NCBI RefSeq assembly: GCF_039655875.1 | Contig: NZ_JBBYXK010000001.1 | Location: 992,001-1,056,000 of the forward strand | Direction: 5' to 3' | DNA length: 64,000 nt | From: Emcibacter sp. SYSU 3D8 | GTDB lineage: Bacteria > Pseudomonadota > Alphaproteobacteria > SMXS01 | Notes under the pieces: model-generated | The model's database searches: none | What the model was told of the DNA's origin: nothing | Seen by the model: the letters and a program-made list of their open reading frames with translations, nothing else | Shown: piece after piece, positions 3,453 to 8,869 of the stretch | Layout: the number at the start of each line of letters is the position of its first letter | Position numbering within the stretch: the first letter of the stretch is position 1 | Made by a program: the position numbers and the translations under genes

Positions 3453-4592
3453 ATGCGGAACTGGATATCTCTGGGCGTTCTCATTGTTCTGGGCACCGCG
3501 CTCACGGCCTGCGGCGACGACACCGTCAGCGGCAAATCCGATGCAGGCGCGGCGAACAACGAAGAGAAAATCGTCAACGTCTACAACTGGTCCGATTACA
3601 TCGCCGCCGACACACTGGAGAACTTCCAGAAGGAAACCGGCATCAAGGTCCGGTACGACGTCTATGATTCCATGTCCATGCTCGAGGCGAAGCTGCTTGC
3701 CGGCGGGTCTGGTTATGACGTGGTGTTTCCGTCGCTGACCCCGTTTCTGGCGCAGCAGATCAAGGCAGGCATCTACCAGCCACTCGACTGGTCGAAGCTG
3801 ACCAATTCCGCCGGCCTGTCGCCGACGATCCTCAAGACGATGTCGAAGAACGACCCGGAAAACACCTACAGCGTGCCCTACATGGTCGCGCCCACCGGGA
3901 TCGGCATTAACGTGGCGAAGGTGAAGGAGCGCCTGGGCGCCGTGCCGCAGGGCAGCGGCGACCTGCTGTTCAGCCCCGAGGTCACGGCGAAGCTGGAGGA
4001 TTGCGGCATCAGCCTGCTGGACGATCCCGTCGATGTGATTCCGGCGGTACTCGCCTGGATGGGCAAGGATCCGATCAGCCAGGACCCGGCGGATCTGGCC
4101 GCCGCCATGGAGGTCCTGAAGGAAATCCGGCCCAACCTGAAATACATCCACTCGTCGTCCTACATCAACGACCTGGCCAATGGCGACCTGTGCGTGGCGC
4201 AGGGCTATGGCGGCGACCTGATCCAGGCCCGCGACCGGGCCAAGGAAGCCGACAACGGCGTCGAGATCATGGCCCTGCTGCCGCGGGAGGGCACGGCGTT
4301 CGTCATCGACACCATGGCAATTCCCAAGGATGCGCCGCATCCCGGCAACGCCCACATCTTCATCAATTACATGATGCGGCCCGGCGTGGTGGCGGCGATC
4401 ACCAACACCACGGGCTATGCCAACGCCGTGCCGGCGTCGCTCGAGAACGTTGACGACGCGATCAAGTCCGATCCGTTCATCTATCCCTCCGACGAGGAGC
4501 GCGCCAAGGGCTTCTCGGTGCCGCCTGCCGACAAGGATTACGAGCGGGAGCGCACCCGGGCATGGTCGACGCTCAAGACGGAGATCAATTAA
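3453..4592 (+). CDS. potF: Putrescine/spermidine ABC transporter substrate-binding lipoprotein (PotF type)
   Basis: The periplasmic binding component of a polyamine importer. Residues 1-20 are a lipoprotein signal with lipobox L-T-A-C, so the protein should be membrane-anchored. The mature part begins with V-Y-N-W-S-D-Y-I-A, the polyamine-binding signature, and has Y-I-N-D-L-A-N-G-D and R-A-K-E-A as in PotF. Length, 379 residues, is typical. It opens a four-gene operon potF-G-H-I with no gaps: the next start codon follows its stop directly. PotF-like (putrescine) is favoured over PotD (spermidine) by overall resemblance, but substrate choice between them is an inference. Confidence 0.93.
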   Translation: MRNWISLGVLIVLGTALTACGDDTVSGKSDAGAANNEEKIVNVYNWSDYIAADTLENFQKETGIKVRYDVYDSMSMLEAKLLAGGSGYDVVFPSLTPFLAQQIKAGIYQPLDWSKLTNSAGLSPTILKTMSKNDPENTYSVPYMVAPTGIGINVAKVKERLGAVPQGSGDLLFSPEVTAKLEDCGISLLDDPVDVIPAVLAWMGKDPISQDPADLAAAMEVLKEIRPNLKYIHSSSYINDLANGDLCVAQGYGGDLIQARDRAKEADNGVEIMALLPREGTAFVIDTMAIPKDAPHPGNAHIFINYMMRPGVVAAITNTTGYANAVPASLENVDDAIKSDPFIYPSDEERAKGFSVPPADKDYERERTRAWSTLKTEIN

Positions 4593-5735
4593 TTGGCCGT
4601 TGGGTCTGGCGGCCTGCAGGACAAACCATGGACCGATCCGACCGCCGAGCCATTCATCCGTATCGAAGGCGTTTCGAAACACTTCGGTGACGTCGCGGCG
4701 GTCAACGGCGTCGACCTCAATATCTACCGGGGCGAGTTCTTCGCCCTGCTTGGCGCGTCGGGCTGCGGCAAGACCACCCTGCTGCGCATGCTCGCCGGAT
4801 TCGAGACGCCCAGCGCCGGCAGGATATTCATCGACGGCGTCGATATGGCGGGCATCCCGCCCTATCGGCGCCCGGTGAACATGATGTTCCAGTCCTACGC
4901 GCTGTTTCCGCACATGACCGTGGGCCAGAACGTGGCGTTTGGCCTGCAGCAGGACGGGGTCGCCAGGGCCGAAATCGCCGGGCGCGTGGCCGAGATGCTG
5001 GATCTGGTACAGATCCGGGCGCTGGAAAAGCGCAAGCCCGATCAGCTTTCCGGCGGCCAGCGGCAGCGCGTGGCGCTGGCCCGGGCGCTGGTGAAGCGTC
5101 CCAAGCTGGTGCTGCTCGACGAGCCGTTGGGCGCACTAGACCGGAAGCTGCGCGAACAGACCCAGTTCGAGTTGGTCAATATCCAGGAAGAGCTGGGAAT
5201 GACCTTCGTCATCGTCACCCACGACCAGGAAGAGGCCATGACCATGGCCAGCCGCGTCTGCGTGATGAATGCGGGCATGGTCGAACAGGTCGGCGCGCCG
5301 GCCGAAGTCTACGAATATCCAAATTCACGCTTCGTCGCCGACTTCATCGGCGCCGCCAACCTGTTCGACGGCGTGGTGATCGAGGCAAGCCCGACACAGA
5401 CCCGCGTGGCATCGCCTGACCTGGGCGCCGACATCGTCGTCGGCACCGGCGGCACGGCGGCGGTGGGCGCGTCTGTCAGCGTCATGGTGCGGCCGGAGAA
5501 AATCCAGGTCATCGCCGACGGCAGCCCTGCGGCGGGTTTCAACTGGGCCGAGGGCATCGTTCGCGAGATCGCGTATCTGGGCGACGTGTCGGTCTATCAT
5601 GTCGAACTGCCGTCGGGAAAACGCATCCAGTTCACCCGCGCCAACCTGTTGCACACAACCGACAACCCGCTGACCTGGGACGACAAGGTCCGGTTCCAGT
5701 GGCATCCCGCCAACGGCATCCTGCTGGTGATATGA
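4593..5735 (+). CDS. potG: Putrescine ABC transporter ATP-binding protein
   Basis: The ATPase that powers polyamine uptake. Walker A is G-A-S-G-C-G-K-T-T at residues 54-62, the Q-loop is in M-M-F-Q-S-Y-A-L-F, the signature is L-S-G-G-Q-R-Q-R-V, Walker B is L-V-L-L-D-E-P, and the H-loop is I-V-T-H-D. A C-terminal TOBE-like domain occupies roughly residues 270-380. The start appears to be TTG at 4593, directly abutting the potF stop: no in-frame ATG or GTG lies between it and the conserved I-R-I-E-G-V-S-K segment. Its stop overlaps the potH start in ATGA, a mark of translational coupling. Confidence 0.94.
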   Translation: MAVGSGGLQDKPWTDPTAEPFIRIEGVSKHFGDVAAVNGVDLNIYRGEFFALLGASGCGKTTLLRMLAGFETPSAGRIFIDGVDMAGIPPYRRPVNMMFQSYALFPHMTVGQNVAFGLQQDGVARAEIAGRVAEMLDLVQIRALEKRKPDQLSGGQRQRVALARALVKRPKLVLLDEPLGALDRKLREQTQFELVNIQEELGMTFVIVTHDQEEAMTMASRVCVMNAGMVEQVGAPAEVYEYPNSRFVADFIGAANLFDGVVIEASPTQTRVASPDLGADIVVGTGGTAAVGASVSVMVRPEKIQVIADGSPAAGFNWAEGIVREIAYLGDVSVYHVELPSGKRIQFTRANLLHTTDNPLTWDDKVRFQWHPANGILLVI

Positions 5736-6667
5736 GGTCGCCCGCCAAAACCCTGGCCGCCGCGGTCCGCAGGCTTCACCAGCCCGGCGCTGGCGGGCGT
5801 CTGGTGGCGCTGTCCATACCCTATGCGTGGCTTGCCCTGTTCTTCCTGCTGCCGCTGCTGATCGTGCTGAAGATCAGCGTGTCGGAAAGCGTCATGGGCA
5901 TTCCGCCCTACGAGCCGATCTTCAAGGCCGCCGAGAACGCACGGGTGCAGATACACCTGACCTTCTCGAACTTCATGCTGCTGCTGCGCGACAATCTGTA
6001 TGTGGTTGCCTACCTCAATTCGGTGAAGATCGCCGCCATCTCCACGCTGGTGTCGGTCCTGCTCGGCTACACCATGGCCTACGGCATCGTGCGCAGCCCG
6101 CTGCGCTGGCGCTACCTGCTGCTGATGCTGATCATCATCCCGTTCTGGACGTCCTTCCTGATCCGCATCTACGCGATGATCGGCTTCCTGAAGGACAACG
6201 GGCTGATCAACAATGTGCTGATGGCGCTGGGCGTCATCGATCAGCCGCTGCCGATCATGTATACGCCGGCCGCCATCTATATCGGCATCGTCTACTCCTA
6301 CCTGCCCTTCATGGTGCTGCCGATCTATGCGGCGCTCGAGCGCATGGACCCGAGTCTGCTCGAGGCGGCCAGCGACCTGGGCGCGAAGCCGTGGAAGGCG
6401 TTCCTGCGGGTGACGTTGCCCCTGTCCATGCCCGGCGTGATCGCCGGCTCGCTGCTGGTATTCATTCCGGCCGTGGGCGAGTTTGTTATCCCCGAGCTGC
6501 TCGGAGGCCTCGGCTCGCCGATGATCGGCAAGGTGTTATGGGCCGAGTTCTTCAACAATCGCGACTGGCCGGTGGCGTCGGCGGTCGCCGTCGCCATGCT
6601 GGCGCTGCTGGTCGTGCCGGTCATGATGTTCGACCGCTTCGCCAGCAAATATTTCCGGGCACGCTGA
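5732..6667 (+). CDS. potH: Putrescine ABC transporter permease, subunit 1 (PotH/PotB type)
   Basis: An inner-membrane permease of about 311 residues with six hydrophobic segments and the permease loop E-A-A-S-D-L-G-A (residues near 210-217), which docks onto the ATPase. The start is the ATG at 5732, four bases before the end of potG (ATGA overlap); a longer frame starting at 5699 would overlap potG more and adds nothing conserved. Its stop TGA overlaps the ATG of potI by one base. It pairs with PotI to form the channel for polyamine entry. Confidence 0.93.
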   Translation: MRSPAKTLAAAVRRLHQPGAGGRLVALSIPYAWLALFFLLPLLIVLKISVSESVMGIPPYEPIFKAAENARVQIHLTFSNFMLLLRDNLYVVAYLNSVKIAAISTLVSVLLGYTMAYGIVRSPLRWRYLLLMLIIIPFWTSFLIRIYAMIGFLKDNGLINNVLMALGVIDQPLPIMYTPAAIYIGIVYSYLPFMVLPIYAALERMDPSLLEAASDLGAKPWKAFLRVTLPLSMPGVIAGSLLVFIPAVGEFVIPELLGGLGSPMIGKVLWAEFFNNRDWPVASAVAVAMLALLVVPVMMFDRFASKYFRAR

Positions 6668-7464
6668 TGGCTGGACGCACGCCCTGGTTCGCCATCTCCA
6701 TGCTCGTCCTGGGCTACCTGTTTCTCTACAGCCCCATTGTTTCGCTGATCGTCTATTCGTTCAACGAATCGCGTCTCGTCACGGTGTGGGCCGGCTTCTC
6801 GACCAAGTGGTATGGCGAGCTGATGCACAACGACGCGCTGCTCGAGGGCGCCTGGCGCAGCGTGCAGATCGCCTTCCTGACGGCAACGCTGGCGGTGGTG
6901 CTGGGCACCCTTGCCGCGTTCGCGTTGATCCGGTTCGGAAATTTTCGGGGCCGCACCCTGTTCGCGGGCATGGTCACCGCGCCCCTGGTGATGCCCGAGG
7001 TGATCACGGGGCTTTCGCTTCTGCTGCTGTTCGTCGCCATGGAGGGCGTTATCGGGTGGCCCGGACGCGGCATGATGACCATCGTCATCGCGCACGCCAC
7101 CTTCGCGACAGCTTATGTGACCGTCGTCGTCCAGTCACGGCTCGGCCAACTGGACATGAGCCTCGAGGAAGCGGCCCTGGACCTGGGCGCAAAGCCGTTC
7201 AAGGTGGTGCGGGTGATCACCCTGCCGCTGATCTGGCCCGCCATGCTGGCCGGCTGGCTGCTCGCCTTCACCCTGTCGTTCGACGATCTGGTCATTGCCA
7301 CCTTCACCTCGGGACCGGGCGCCAAAACCCTGCCGATGGAAGTCTTCTCCAGCGTCCGCATGGGCGTCAGCCCCCAGATCAATGCGCTCGCCACCATCTT
7401 CATCGTCGTGGTGACCAGCATGGTGGTCATCGCCAACCAGATCGCCTTTCGCCGGCGCGCCTAG
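6667..7464 (+). CDS. potI: Putrescine ABC transporter permease, subunit 2 (PotI/PotC type)
   Basis: The second permease of the polyamine importer, 265 residues, with an N-terminal membrane anchor (residues 8-30) and five further hydrophobic stretches. The cytoplasmic loop E-E-A-A-L-D-L-G-A matches the EAA motif and the following F-D-D-L-V-I-A segment is characteristic of PotI/PotC. It starts in the stop codon of potH (TGATG), consistent with coupled translation, and is the last gene of the operon; the next gene is convergent 39 bases away. Confidence 0.93.
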   Translation: MAGRTPWFAISMLVLGYLFLYSPIVSLIVYSFNESRLVTVWAGFSTKWYGELMHNDALLEGAWRSVQIAFLTATLAVVLGTLAAFALIRFGNFRGRTLFAGMVTAPLVMPEVITGLSLLLLFVAMEGVIGWPGRGMMTIVIAHATFATAYVTVVVQSRLGQLDMSLEEAALDLGAKPFKVVRVITLPLIWPAMLAGWLLAFTLSFDDLVIATFTSGPGAKTLPMEVFSSVRMGVSPQINALATIFIVVVTSMVVIANQIAFRRRA

Positions 7465-7503: not shown

Positions 7504-7863
7504 TCATTTTGCGATCAGAGCGGCCAGCAGCGCCACCACCTCATCGGGTGGCGCAGGCTTGCGGAGCAGCGCCACTTCGCCGCGCCGCGGCTCCAGGGCG
7601 GCCGGCAGATTGGCTGCTGTAAACAGGACAATGGGAACGCCGCCCGCGAGGAGCACTTCCGCGAGCGGCGTGACGTCCCTGTCCCTCAGGTTGCAATCCA
7701 GGATGGCGCCGGCGACGGTCGCATCCCTGAGCAGCGCCAGGCCTTGCCTCACCGTCGAAACCGGGCCAATGACCGCGCCACCGGCAGTTCTGACGGCATC
7801 TGCCAGGTCCATGGCAATGAAGGGTTCATCTTCAACGATGAGGATTGGGACGCCATCGAACAT
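7504..7863 (-). CDS. Single-domain response regulator receiver protein
   Basis: A stand-alone CheY-like receiver with no output domain. The acidic pair is in I-V-E-D-E-P near residue 10, the phospho-acceptor aspartate is in A-I-L-D-C-N-L near residue 55, the switch threonine is in V-L-F-T-A-A-N and the conserved lysine is in L-L-R-K-P. I chose the ATG at 7863 because the conserved strand beta-1 starts three residues later; an upstream ATG at 7902 would add 13 unconserved residues. Such proteins act as phosphate sinks, phosphorelay carriers or kinase modulators. It diverges from the Crp/Fnr gene across a region with GTAC repeats, which suggests joint regulation. No partner kinase is seen. Confidence 0.82.
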   Translation of the reverse strand: MFDGVPILIVEDEPFIAMDLADAVRTAGGAVIGPVSTVRQGLALLRDATVAGAILDCNLRDRDVTPLAEVLLAGGVPIVLFTAANLPAALEPRRGEVALLRKPAPPDEVVALLAALIAK

Positions 7864-7967
7864 GTCACACCGTCCCGCAAGATTTCCAAGATATTCGAGC
7901 ACCGAACTTTTCTCTCGCGGCTTCAGGCTCCCTTGAGCATGAGCAGCCGCAAGATTATCGGCACTAT

Positions 7968-8044
7968 TCGTACGATAACGTACAGTTCACTGATTGGTTC
8001 GCCAAGAATCATCATTCCGTACGGATTGTGTACGTGTTCGTACC
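7968..8044. promoter_or_regulatory. Array of five helically spaced GTAC-centred sites
   Basis: Five GTAC cores lie at 7970, 7980, 8019, 8030 and 8040, spaced by 10, 39, 11 and 10 bases, that is close to whole helical turns. Two are embedded in longer perfect palindromes: TCGTACGA at 7968-7975 and TCCGTACGGA at 8016-8025. They lie between the divergent receiver gene and Crp/Fnr gene, where an operator array would be expected. Which protein binds is unknown. Confidence 0.5.
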
Positions 8045-8164
8045 GACAGAATAATTTCATGAACATAGCGTGTGCGCCCTATATAAGGGGCATCGGCCTG
8101 CAGATGCTCGTTGGGCGCGGCCGGCTGAGAGTATGTCCTCCCGCCCTGGCTGAAGGGAGGCAAT

Positions 8165-8869
8165 GTGCAATCCGTTATCACGAAACCCCTTCGCAACCGG
8201 TTGCTTGCCGCGCTGTCCGGCAGTGACGCGGCGCTGCTGACGCCTCACCTCGTGCTGGTCGACCTTGAAAAGCACCAGATCCTGATCGAGCCGGGTGAGG
8301 AGATGCAGTTCTGCTGGTTCATCGAGGCCGGCATCGCCTCGATCGTTGCCGGCACGCTTCGCGGCGACCAGACCGAAGTCGGTCTGGTTGGCTGTGATGG
8401 CATGGTCGATGTTGCCGTGCTCCACACCCTGAACCACTCGTCGCTACGCGTATTCGTGCAGGCGGCCGGCCAGGCCTACCGGATCCAGATCGCGGCGATA
8501 CAGGGTGCGCTGCAACGCAGCGAGACCCTGCGCAGCGAATTGCTGCGATACTCCCATGCGCTGCTGGTCCAGGTCTCGAGCACCACCCTCGCCAACGCAT
8601 CATGCACCCTCGAGGAGCGTCTCGCGCGCTGGCTGCTCATGTATCACGACCGCTCGGATGGCGACGACCTGTTCATGACACATGAAATTCTGTCGCTGAT
8701 GCTCAATGTGCGCCGGGCGGGCGTGTCGCTGACGCTCAAGTCGCTCCAGACCCGGAGCATACTAAGTTCGCGGCGCGGTGTGATCGCGATCACCGATCGT
8801 CTGGCGCTCGAGAAGATCGCCGGCGATGGTTACGGCGTGGCGGAAAAACTCTCTGCCTCATCGGCCTGA
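8165..8869 (+). CDS. Crp/Fnr family transcriptional regulator
   Basis: A 234-residue regulator with an N-terminal cyclic-nucleotide-binding-like beta-roll (about residues 15-130) and a C-terminal winged helix of the Crp type, including S-L-M-L-N-V-R-R-A-G-V as the recognition region. There are no clustered N-terminal cysteines, so it is not an oxygen sensor of the FNR type, and the signal cannot be read. The start is GTG at 8165, placed six bases after the strong ribosome-binding site GGGAGG. It belongs to a subgroup that alphaproteobacteria carry in many copies. It is divergent from the receiver protein. Confidence 0.88.
   Translation: MQSVITKPLRNRLLAALSGSDAALLTPHLVLVDLEKHQILIEPGEEMQFCWFIEAGIASIVAGTLRGDQTEVGLVGCDGMVDVAVLHTLNHSSLRVFVQAAGQAYRIQIAAIQGALQRSETLRSELLRYSHALLVQVSSTTLANASCTLEERLARWLLMYHDRSDGDDLFMTHEILSLMLNVRRAGVSLTLKSLQTRSILSSRRGVIAITDRLALEKIAGDGYGVAEKLSASSA

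Follow-up and report, generated by a model that had tools for sequence, protein, structure and literature searches.

What might bind the intergenic region between a receiver gene and a Crp/Fnr-type regulator gene is the question raised by five GTAC cores at 7970, 7980, 8019, 8030 and 8040 in the window, that is, the whole stretch of 64,000 nucleotides from Emcibacter sp. SYSU 3D8 that was analysed. The cores lie in a gap of 262 nt (53% GC) between the receiver gene on the minus strand and the Crp/Fnr gene on the plus strand. A preliminary description, whose coordinates for the cores were exact, had suggested that five sites on one face of the helix might be a new operator for the Crp/Fnr protein or for a partner of the receiver. 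The genus comparison comprised the five species with the Crp/Fnr gene, namely G000 (the window's own), G001, G002, G004 and G005, and the features of the region are as follows.

7504-7863, minus strand: single-domain receiver, 119 aa from the likely ATG (Response_reg E 1e-5, under the curated cut-off)
7954-7959, minus strand: putative -10 element GATAAT of the receiver gene, 10 nt from the left dyad, assigned from the sequence
7970-7983, receiver side: left dyad GTACGATAACGTAC, GTACG-ATAA-CGTAC, exact in G000, G004 and G005
8019-8022: fifth GTAC, within CCGTACGG, absent from all four relatives
8030-8043, Crp/Fnr side: right dyad GTACGTGTTCGTAC, GTACG-TGTT-CGTAC, kept in all five species with the gene
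8056-8061 and 8080-8085, plus strand: putative Crp/Fnr promoter, -35 TTCATG and -10 TATATA, assigned from the sequence and the alignment of relatives
8089-8164, plus strand: 5' leader of the Crp/Fnr gene, 83-89% identical across the species of the genus (Crp/Fnr protein, 71-77%)
8165-8869, plus strand: Crp/Fnr-type regulator, 234 aa, GTG start (Pfam HTH_Crp_2 E 6e-12)

The window contained 63 GTACs, with 66.8 expected from its dinucleotide content, so that, contrary to what the preliminary description had supposed, the tetramer was not rare here. Its clustering, on the other hand, was above chance: none of 300 simulated windows (dinucleotide-Markov) held more than three GTACs in any 77 bases versus five in the real sequence, and five or more in 262 nt had a p of 0.0003 in simulation at the local intergenic composition of 53% GC. 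Four of the five cores are half-sites of two 14-bp dyads of the form GTACG-N4-CGTAC (7970/7980 and 8030/8040), which form an inverted pair, and two such dyads arose in none of 20,000 trials simulated at local composition. A pattern search of the 4.07-Mb genome returned five strict dyads, two of them here and 60 bp apart. The two-fold nature of each pair is masked because GTAC is itself palindromic. The 10-bp step is the distance between half-sites, about one turn, within one dimer site, and the layout GTACG-N4-CGTAC is the dimer-site geometry for a Crp/Fnr protein. The core at 8019 has no partner at the 10-bp half-site spacing and is probably incidental.

Conservation of GTAC sites in relatives that keep both genes, on which the preliminary description had made its proposal depend, was found in the dyads. 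The right dyad was strict in four of the five species and carried one mismatch in G005, and its N4 spacer differed among them (TGTT, TGTC, CGTC, CACC and CACC). The left dyad was strict in the three genomes listed above, half-degenerate in G001 and absent from G002, a genome that also has no receiver ortholog. Close receiver orthologs occurred only in genomes that also carry the Crp/Fnr gene, and the family members without that gene (G003, G006 and G007) contained no strict dyad. In these comparisons the right dyad goes with the Crp/Fnr gene and the left one with the receiver gene. One-mismatch dyads were about as numerous in genomes that lack the regulator as in those that have it, and are mostly background. 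An apparent loss of the operator in G001 proved to be an assembly break, with contig C117 holding the true upstream region; on this contig (L055) the receiver frame is interrupted, with matches in two frames, which reflects either a draft-assembly error or a real frameshift.

Judged by its helix-turn-helix, the regulator is a member of the Crp/Fnr family. Its HTH_Crp_2 score of 45.7 bits versus a cut-off of 27 indicates a C-terminal Crp-type helix-turn-helix, with the recognition helix NVRRAGVSLTL, and its N-terminal domain is a degenerate cNMP_binding domain (PF00027, E 1e-4) under the curated (gathering) cut-off. A profile of the subfamily matched structures of NtcA, GlxR-type proteins and CRP over most of its length (E 1e-11 to 1e-6), and no NCBIfam model was found that the regulator passes. 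The receiver reading frame is open from a GTG at 7902, and the PhyR model covers only the receiver part of the 119-aa protein, under its cut-off. Genes for a solute-binding protein, an ABC ATPase and two permease-like proteins lie in a row before the receiver gene (3453-7464) in a polyamine-type arrangement, and in G002 the end of this transporter directly adjoins the Crp/Fnr upstream region.

The strict consensus GTACG-N4-CGTAC was fixed from the window before other families were searched, and seven of 26 distant upstream regions matched it at nine or more of the ten positions; simple arithmetic on 4^10 puts the chance for a single region at about 1%. One homolog with 36% protein identity was preceded by an exact site, GTACGTTACCGTAC. 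A second, independent set, drawn from the broad genus g68 and from plasmids of Azospirillum, Skermanella, Methylobacterium, Polymorphobacter, Phyllobacterium and Sinorhizobium, also contained sites that matched exactly or nearly so (exact, for example, in L143, L145 and L172) and revealed the variant GTCCG-N4-CGGAC. With the third base freed, GTNCG-N4-CGNAC was present in 27 of 75 upstream regions, the homologs in other families having 36-47% identity; as this was done only once the variant had come to light, the test is partly post hoc, which the strict 26-region test is not. With the arms kept and the spacer changed to 0-3 or 5-12, zero to three of the 75 regions matched, N4 alone being enriched; with N4 kept, the remaining 255 arm types matched 0.53 regions on average and six at most. 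No full dyad was found within 350 bp of 48 of the 76 homologs, including L014, L015, L025 and L153 with an RRAGV helix, and autoregulation is therefore not universal. A betaproteobacterial homolog with RREGVT (L182) has the dyad CTGCG-TTTG-CGCAG 37 bp upstream of its Crp/Fnr gene, and this N4 dyad with other arms may be chance or another letter of the code.

The third base of the half-site co-varied with residue X of the recognition helix (RR-X-GV). Where X is Ala the third base was A in 22 of 24 half-sites, and where X is Gln it was C in 11 of 12. The Fisher test of this association (p 7e-8) counts half-sites as independent, and since the Gln proteins come essentially from one clade of one genus the value overstates independence and reflects few independent events. 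Ala was scattered over the tree, with at least seven changes forced by supported branches. The Pro proteins had mixed sites with one A half each, and the single Thr protein a C/C site. In L155 and L159, members of the Gln clade that have switched to Pro, the best sites were weaker (8/10) and each had a CGTAC half, a shift in the expected direction. By profile match to PDB structures, X aligned with Val in NtcA and Glu in GlxR-type proteins, and the preceding Arg with their Arg, so that X corresponds to E181 of CRP and the Arg to R180. Both residues are published specificity determinants of the Crp/Fnr family, residue 181 being linked to a neighbouring base (PMC1274295), whereas X is linked here to the third base of the half-site. 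Because of this co-variation it is very likely that the Crp/Fnr protein itself binds both dyads. The Crp/Fnr operator suggested in the preliminary description is strongly supported at the level of sequence by conservation in the genus, recurrence at distant homologs and co-variation with the helix.

Our reading, which we hold at a probability of roughly 0.87, is that the GTACs mark a divergent control region in which each promoter has one dimer operator. The Crp/Fnr protein (8165-8869), bound to both dyads, would in this way control both the gene that encodes it and the divergently oriented gene for the single-domain receiver. The left dyad appears to cover about -36 to -23 of the putative receiver promoter, and by overlapping the -35 region it would block RNA polymerase and repress the receiver; the same 10-nt gap separates the left dyad from GATATT in G004 and GACATT in G005. 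The right dyad would be centred near -55 of the putative Crp/Fnr promoter, upstream of a weak -35, a placement at which activation may be possible. The alignment of this promoter in the relatives gave TTRGGA, 17-18 nt and a TATATA-like element. Repression of the receiver, and autocontrol of either sign, are guesses, because the promoters were called by eye and by conservation among relatives, and an automatic promoter scan found no sigma-70 site.

In the leader downstream, a hairpin pairs CCTCCC with the Shine-Dalgarno GGGAGG in all five species. The leader had no match in Rfam, and as a stable RNA fold it was no better than shuffled sequences (z +0.4 and +0.5). A small frame from 8104 on the plus strand, beginning MLxGRxRLRVxPPA, overlaps the Crp/Fnr start in another frame in all five species, and is either an upstream ORF or a side effect of the leader being conserved.

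Similar-size perfect dyads are generally known from other regulator families, and the sites could thus be operators of another dimeric regulator (of GntR or TetR type, for example) with the Crp/Fnr gene only as a target. We regard this as unlikely, since the site travels with the Crp/Fnr subfamily across families in which the neighbours differ, the third base tracks the recognition-helix residue, and both the spacing and the bases suit Crp/Fnr recognition, as judged from the NtcA site and the R180/E181 code. The cyanobacterial Crp/Fnr protein NtcA has the binding site GTAN8TAC (PMC3898017), and both dyads conform to it. The earlier remark that no regulator of this class was known with a GTAC core therefore has to be amended. 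The dyads add to the NtcA site a fixed CG beside the spacer. Further features common to NtcA and the regulator are a dimeric, two-fold site, the Arg corresponding to R180 and a small residue in place of E181 (Val in NtcA, Ala here), and of the solved structures NtcA was one of the best matches to the subfamily profile (E 1e-11). The helices differ (STRVTVT in NtcA versus VRRAGVS), as does the setting, which here is alphaproteobacterial and divergent with a receiver gene, and the likeness is one of profile similarity, with no claim of orthology.

Regulators of the HcpR2 type recognise the motif GTAACnnnnGTTAC and have Pro at position 181 (PMC1274295). They resemble the subfamily in a 5-N4-5 dyad starting with GTA and in a change at residue 181 tied to a change in the motif, but the inner bases are AC rather than CG, and lineages and target genes are different. 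The FNR/FixK box is TTGAT-N4-ATCAA, 14 bp long, and belongs to the same superfamily with the same two-fold architecture and size but a different half-site. Identification of the regulator as FNR was rejected, the FNR-type N-terminal Fe-S cysteine cluster being absent; inspection of the translation found only three Cys, none in an N-terminal cluster. CRP (TGTGA-N6-TCACA) likewise shares superfamily and two-fold architecture, and was rejected on Ala instead of Glu at position 181 and a GTACG instead of a TGTGA half-site. A literature search, for which most subscription journals were outside reach, returned no description of a GTACG operator for this subfamily. The best reading is that GTACG-N4-CGTAC would be a new operator class of an uncharacterised Crp/Fnr subfamily.

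Less likely still is the proposal of the preliminary description that a cooperative oligomer binds five GTAC sites on the same face, to which the spacings of 10, 39, 11 and 10 bases had seemed to point. Each 10-bp pair is a single dimer site, the core at 8019 is unconserved, and the centres of the two dyads are 60, 60, 60 and 61 bp apart in four species, or about 5.7 turns of 10.5 bp, so that the left and right dyads do not lie on the same face. Most of the distant homologs, moreover, have a single dyad. The dyads lie close to both promoters, and ECF sigma genes are nearby in some loci, as would be expected if they were -35 or -10 motifs of ECF sigma promoters and not operators, but this reading is very improbable in view of their perfect two-fold symmetry and strict N4, which are unlike asymmetric ECF promoters, and of co-variation that is with the Crp/Fnr helix. 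A chance grouping of a tetramer that is as frequent in the window as expected has a negligible probability, being contradicted by the simulations and refuted by conservation.

On other genomes the dyad was mostly intergenic, before Crp/Fnr, receiver, sigma, stress-type and hypothetical genes. In Microvirga it preceded a receiver gene, and in Phyllobacterium an EcfG-like sigma gene whose product is 42% identical to the sigma of the window's genus. Within the genus, the EcfG-like sigma gene had a strict dyad 89 bp upstream in G005, a one-mismatch dyad at that position in G004, a variant with an N3 spacer in G001 and no dyad in G000 or G002, and a perfectly conserved EcfG target within the genus was rejected on these two absences. 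The PhyR-NepR-EcfG general stress response has single-domain receivers such as MrrA (PMC5964349), and it resembles the present system in the single-domain receiver beside the operator and in the EcfG-like sigma genes with a dyad in some relatives; the window receiver differs from PhyR, as it is without the sigma-like domain. The presence of homologous sites in front of EcfG-like sigma genes and of a further receiver gene points to a local branch of the general stress response, and a recurring local circuit of Crp/Fnr protein, receiver and EcfG-like sigma is plausible. In the papers searched, we found no description of a Crp/Fnr layer with a GTACG dyad operator.

Our broadest proposal is tentative and stands at slightly under even odds: a widespread alphaproteobacterial Crp/Fnr subfamily (VRR-X-GVT) may form a local regulatory layer over single-domain receivers and EcfG-type sigmas, with its own operator GTNCG-N4-CGNAC, the third base of which would be set by X (A with Ala, C with Gln, Pro being permissive). 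If this is true, the base set by X would let paralogs on one genome be wired to separate operators. The analysis gives a predicted operator to a subfamily that many alphaproteobacteria carry on chromosomes and plasmids (359 plasmid records matched it), connects it with the general stress response through receivers and EcfG-like sigma factors, and adds naturally occurring variants to what is known of the family's residue-180/181 recognition code.

On a plasmid of Microvirga terrae, several Crp/Fnr paralogs and a receiver gene occur together with dyads before them (L206:23386, 24258 and 24322), possibly a multi-paralog circuit. A strict dyad at C16:411 in G004 was rejected as a regulon member, as it lies inside an open frame and is probably coding. 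In G000, a strict dyad with longer arms, TTGTACGAAATCGTACAA (L047:1501-1514; C1:928314), is intergenic and about 100 bp before an Mpo1-like gene, and is the best candidate for a further target in that genome.
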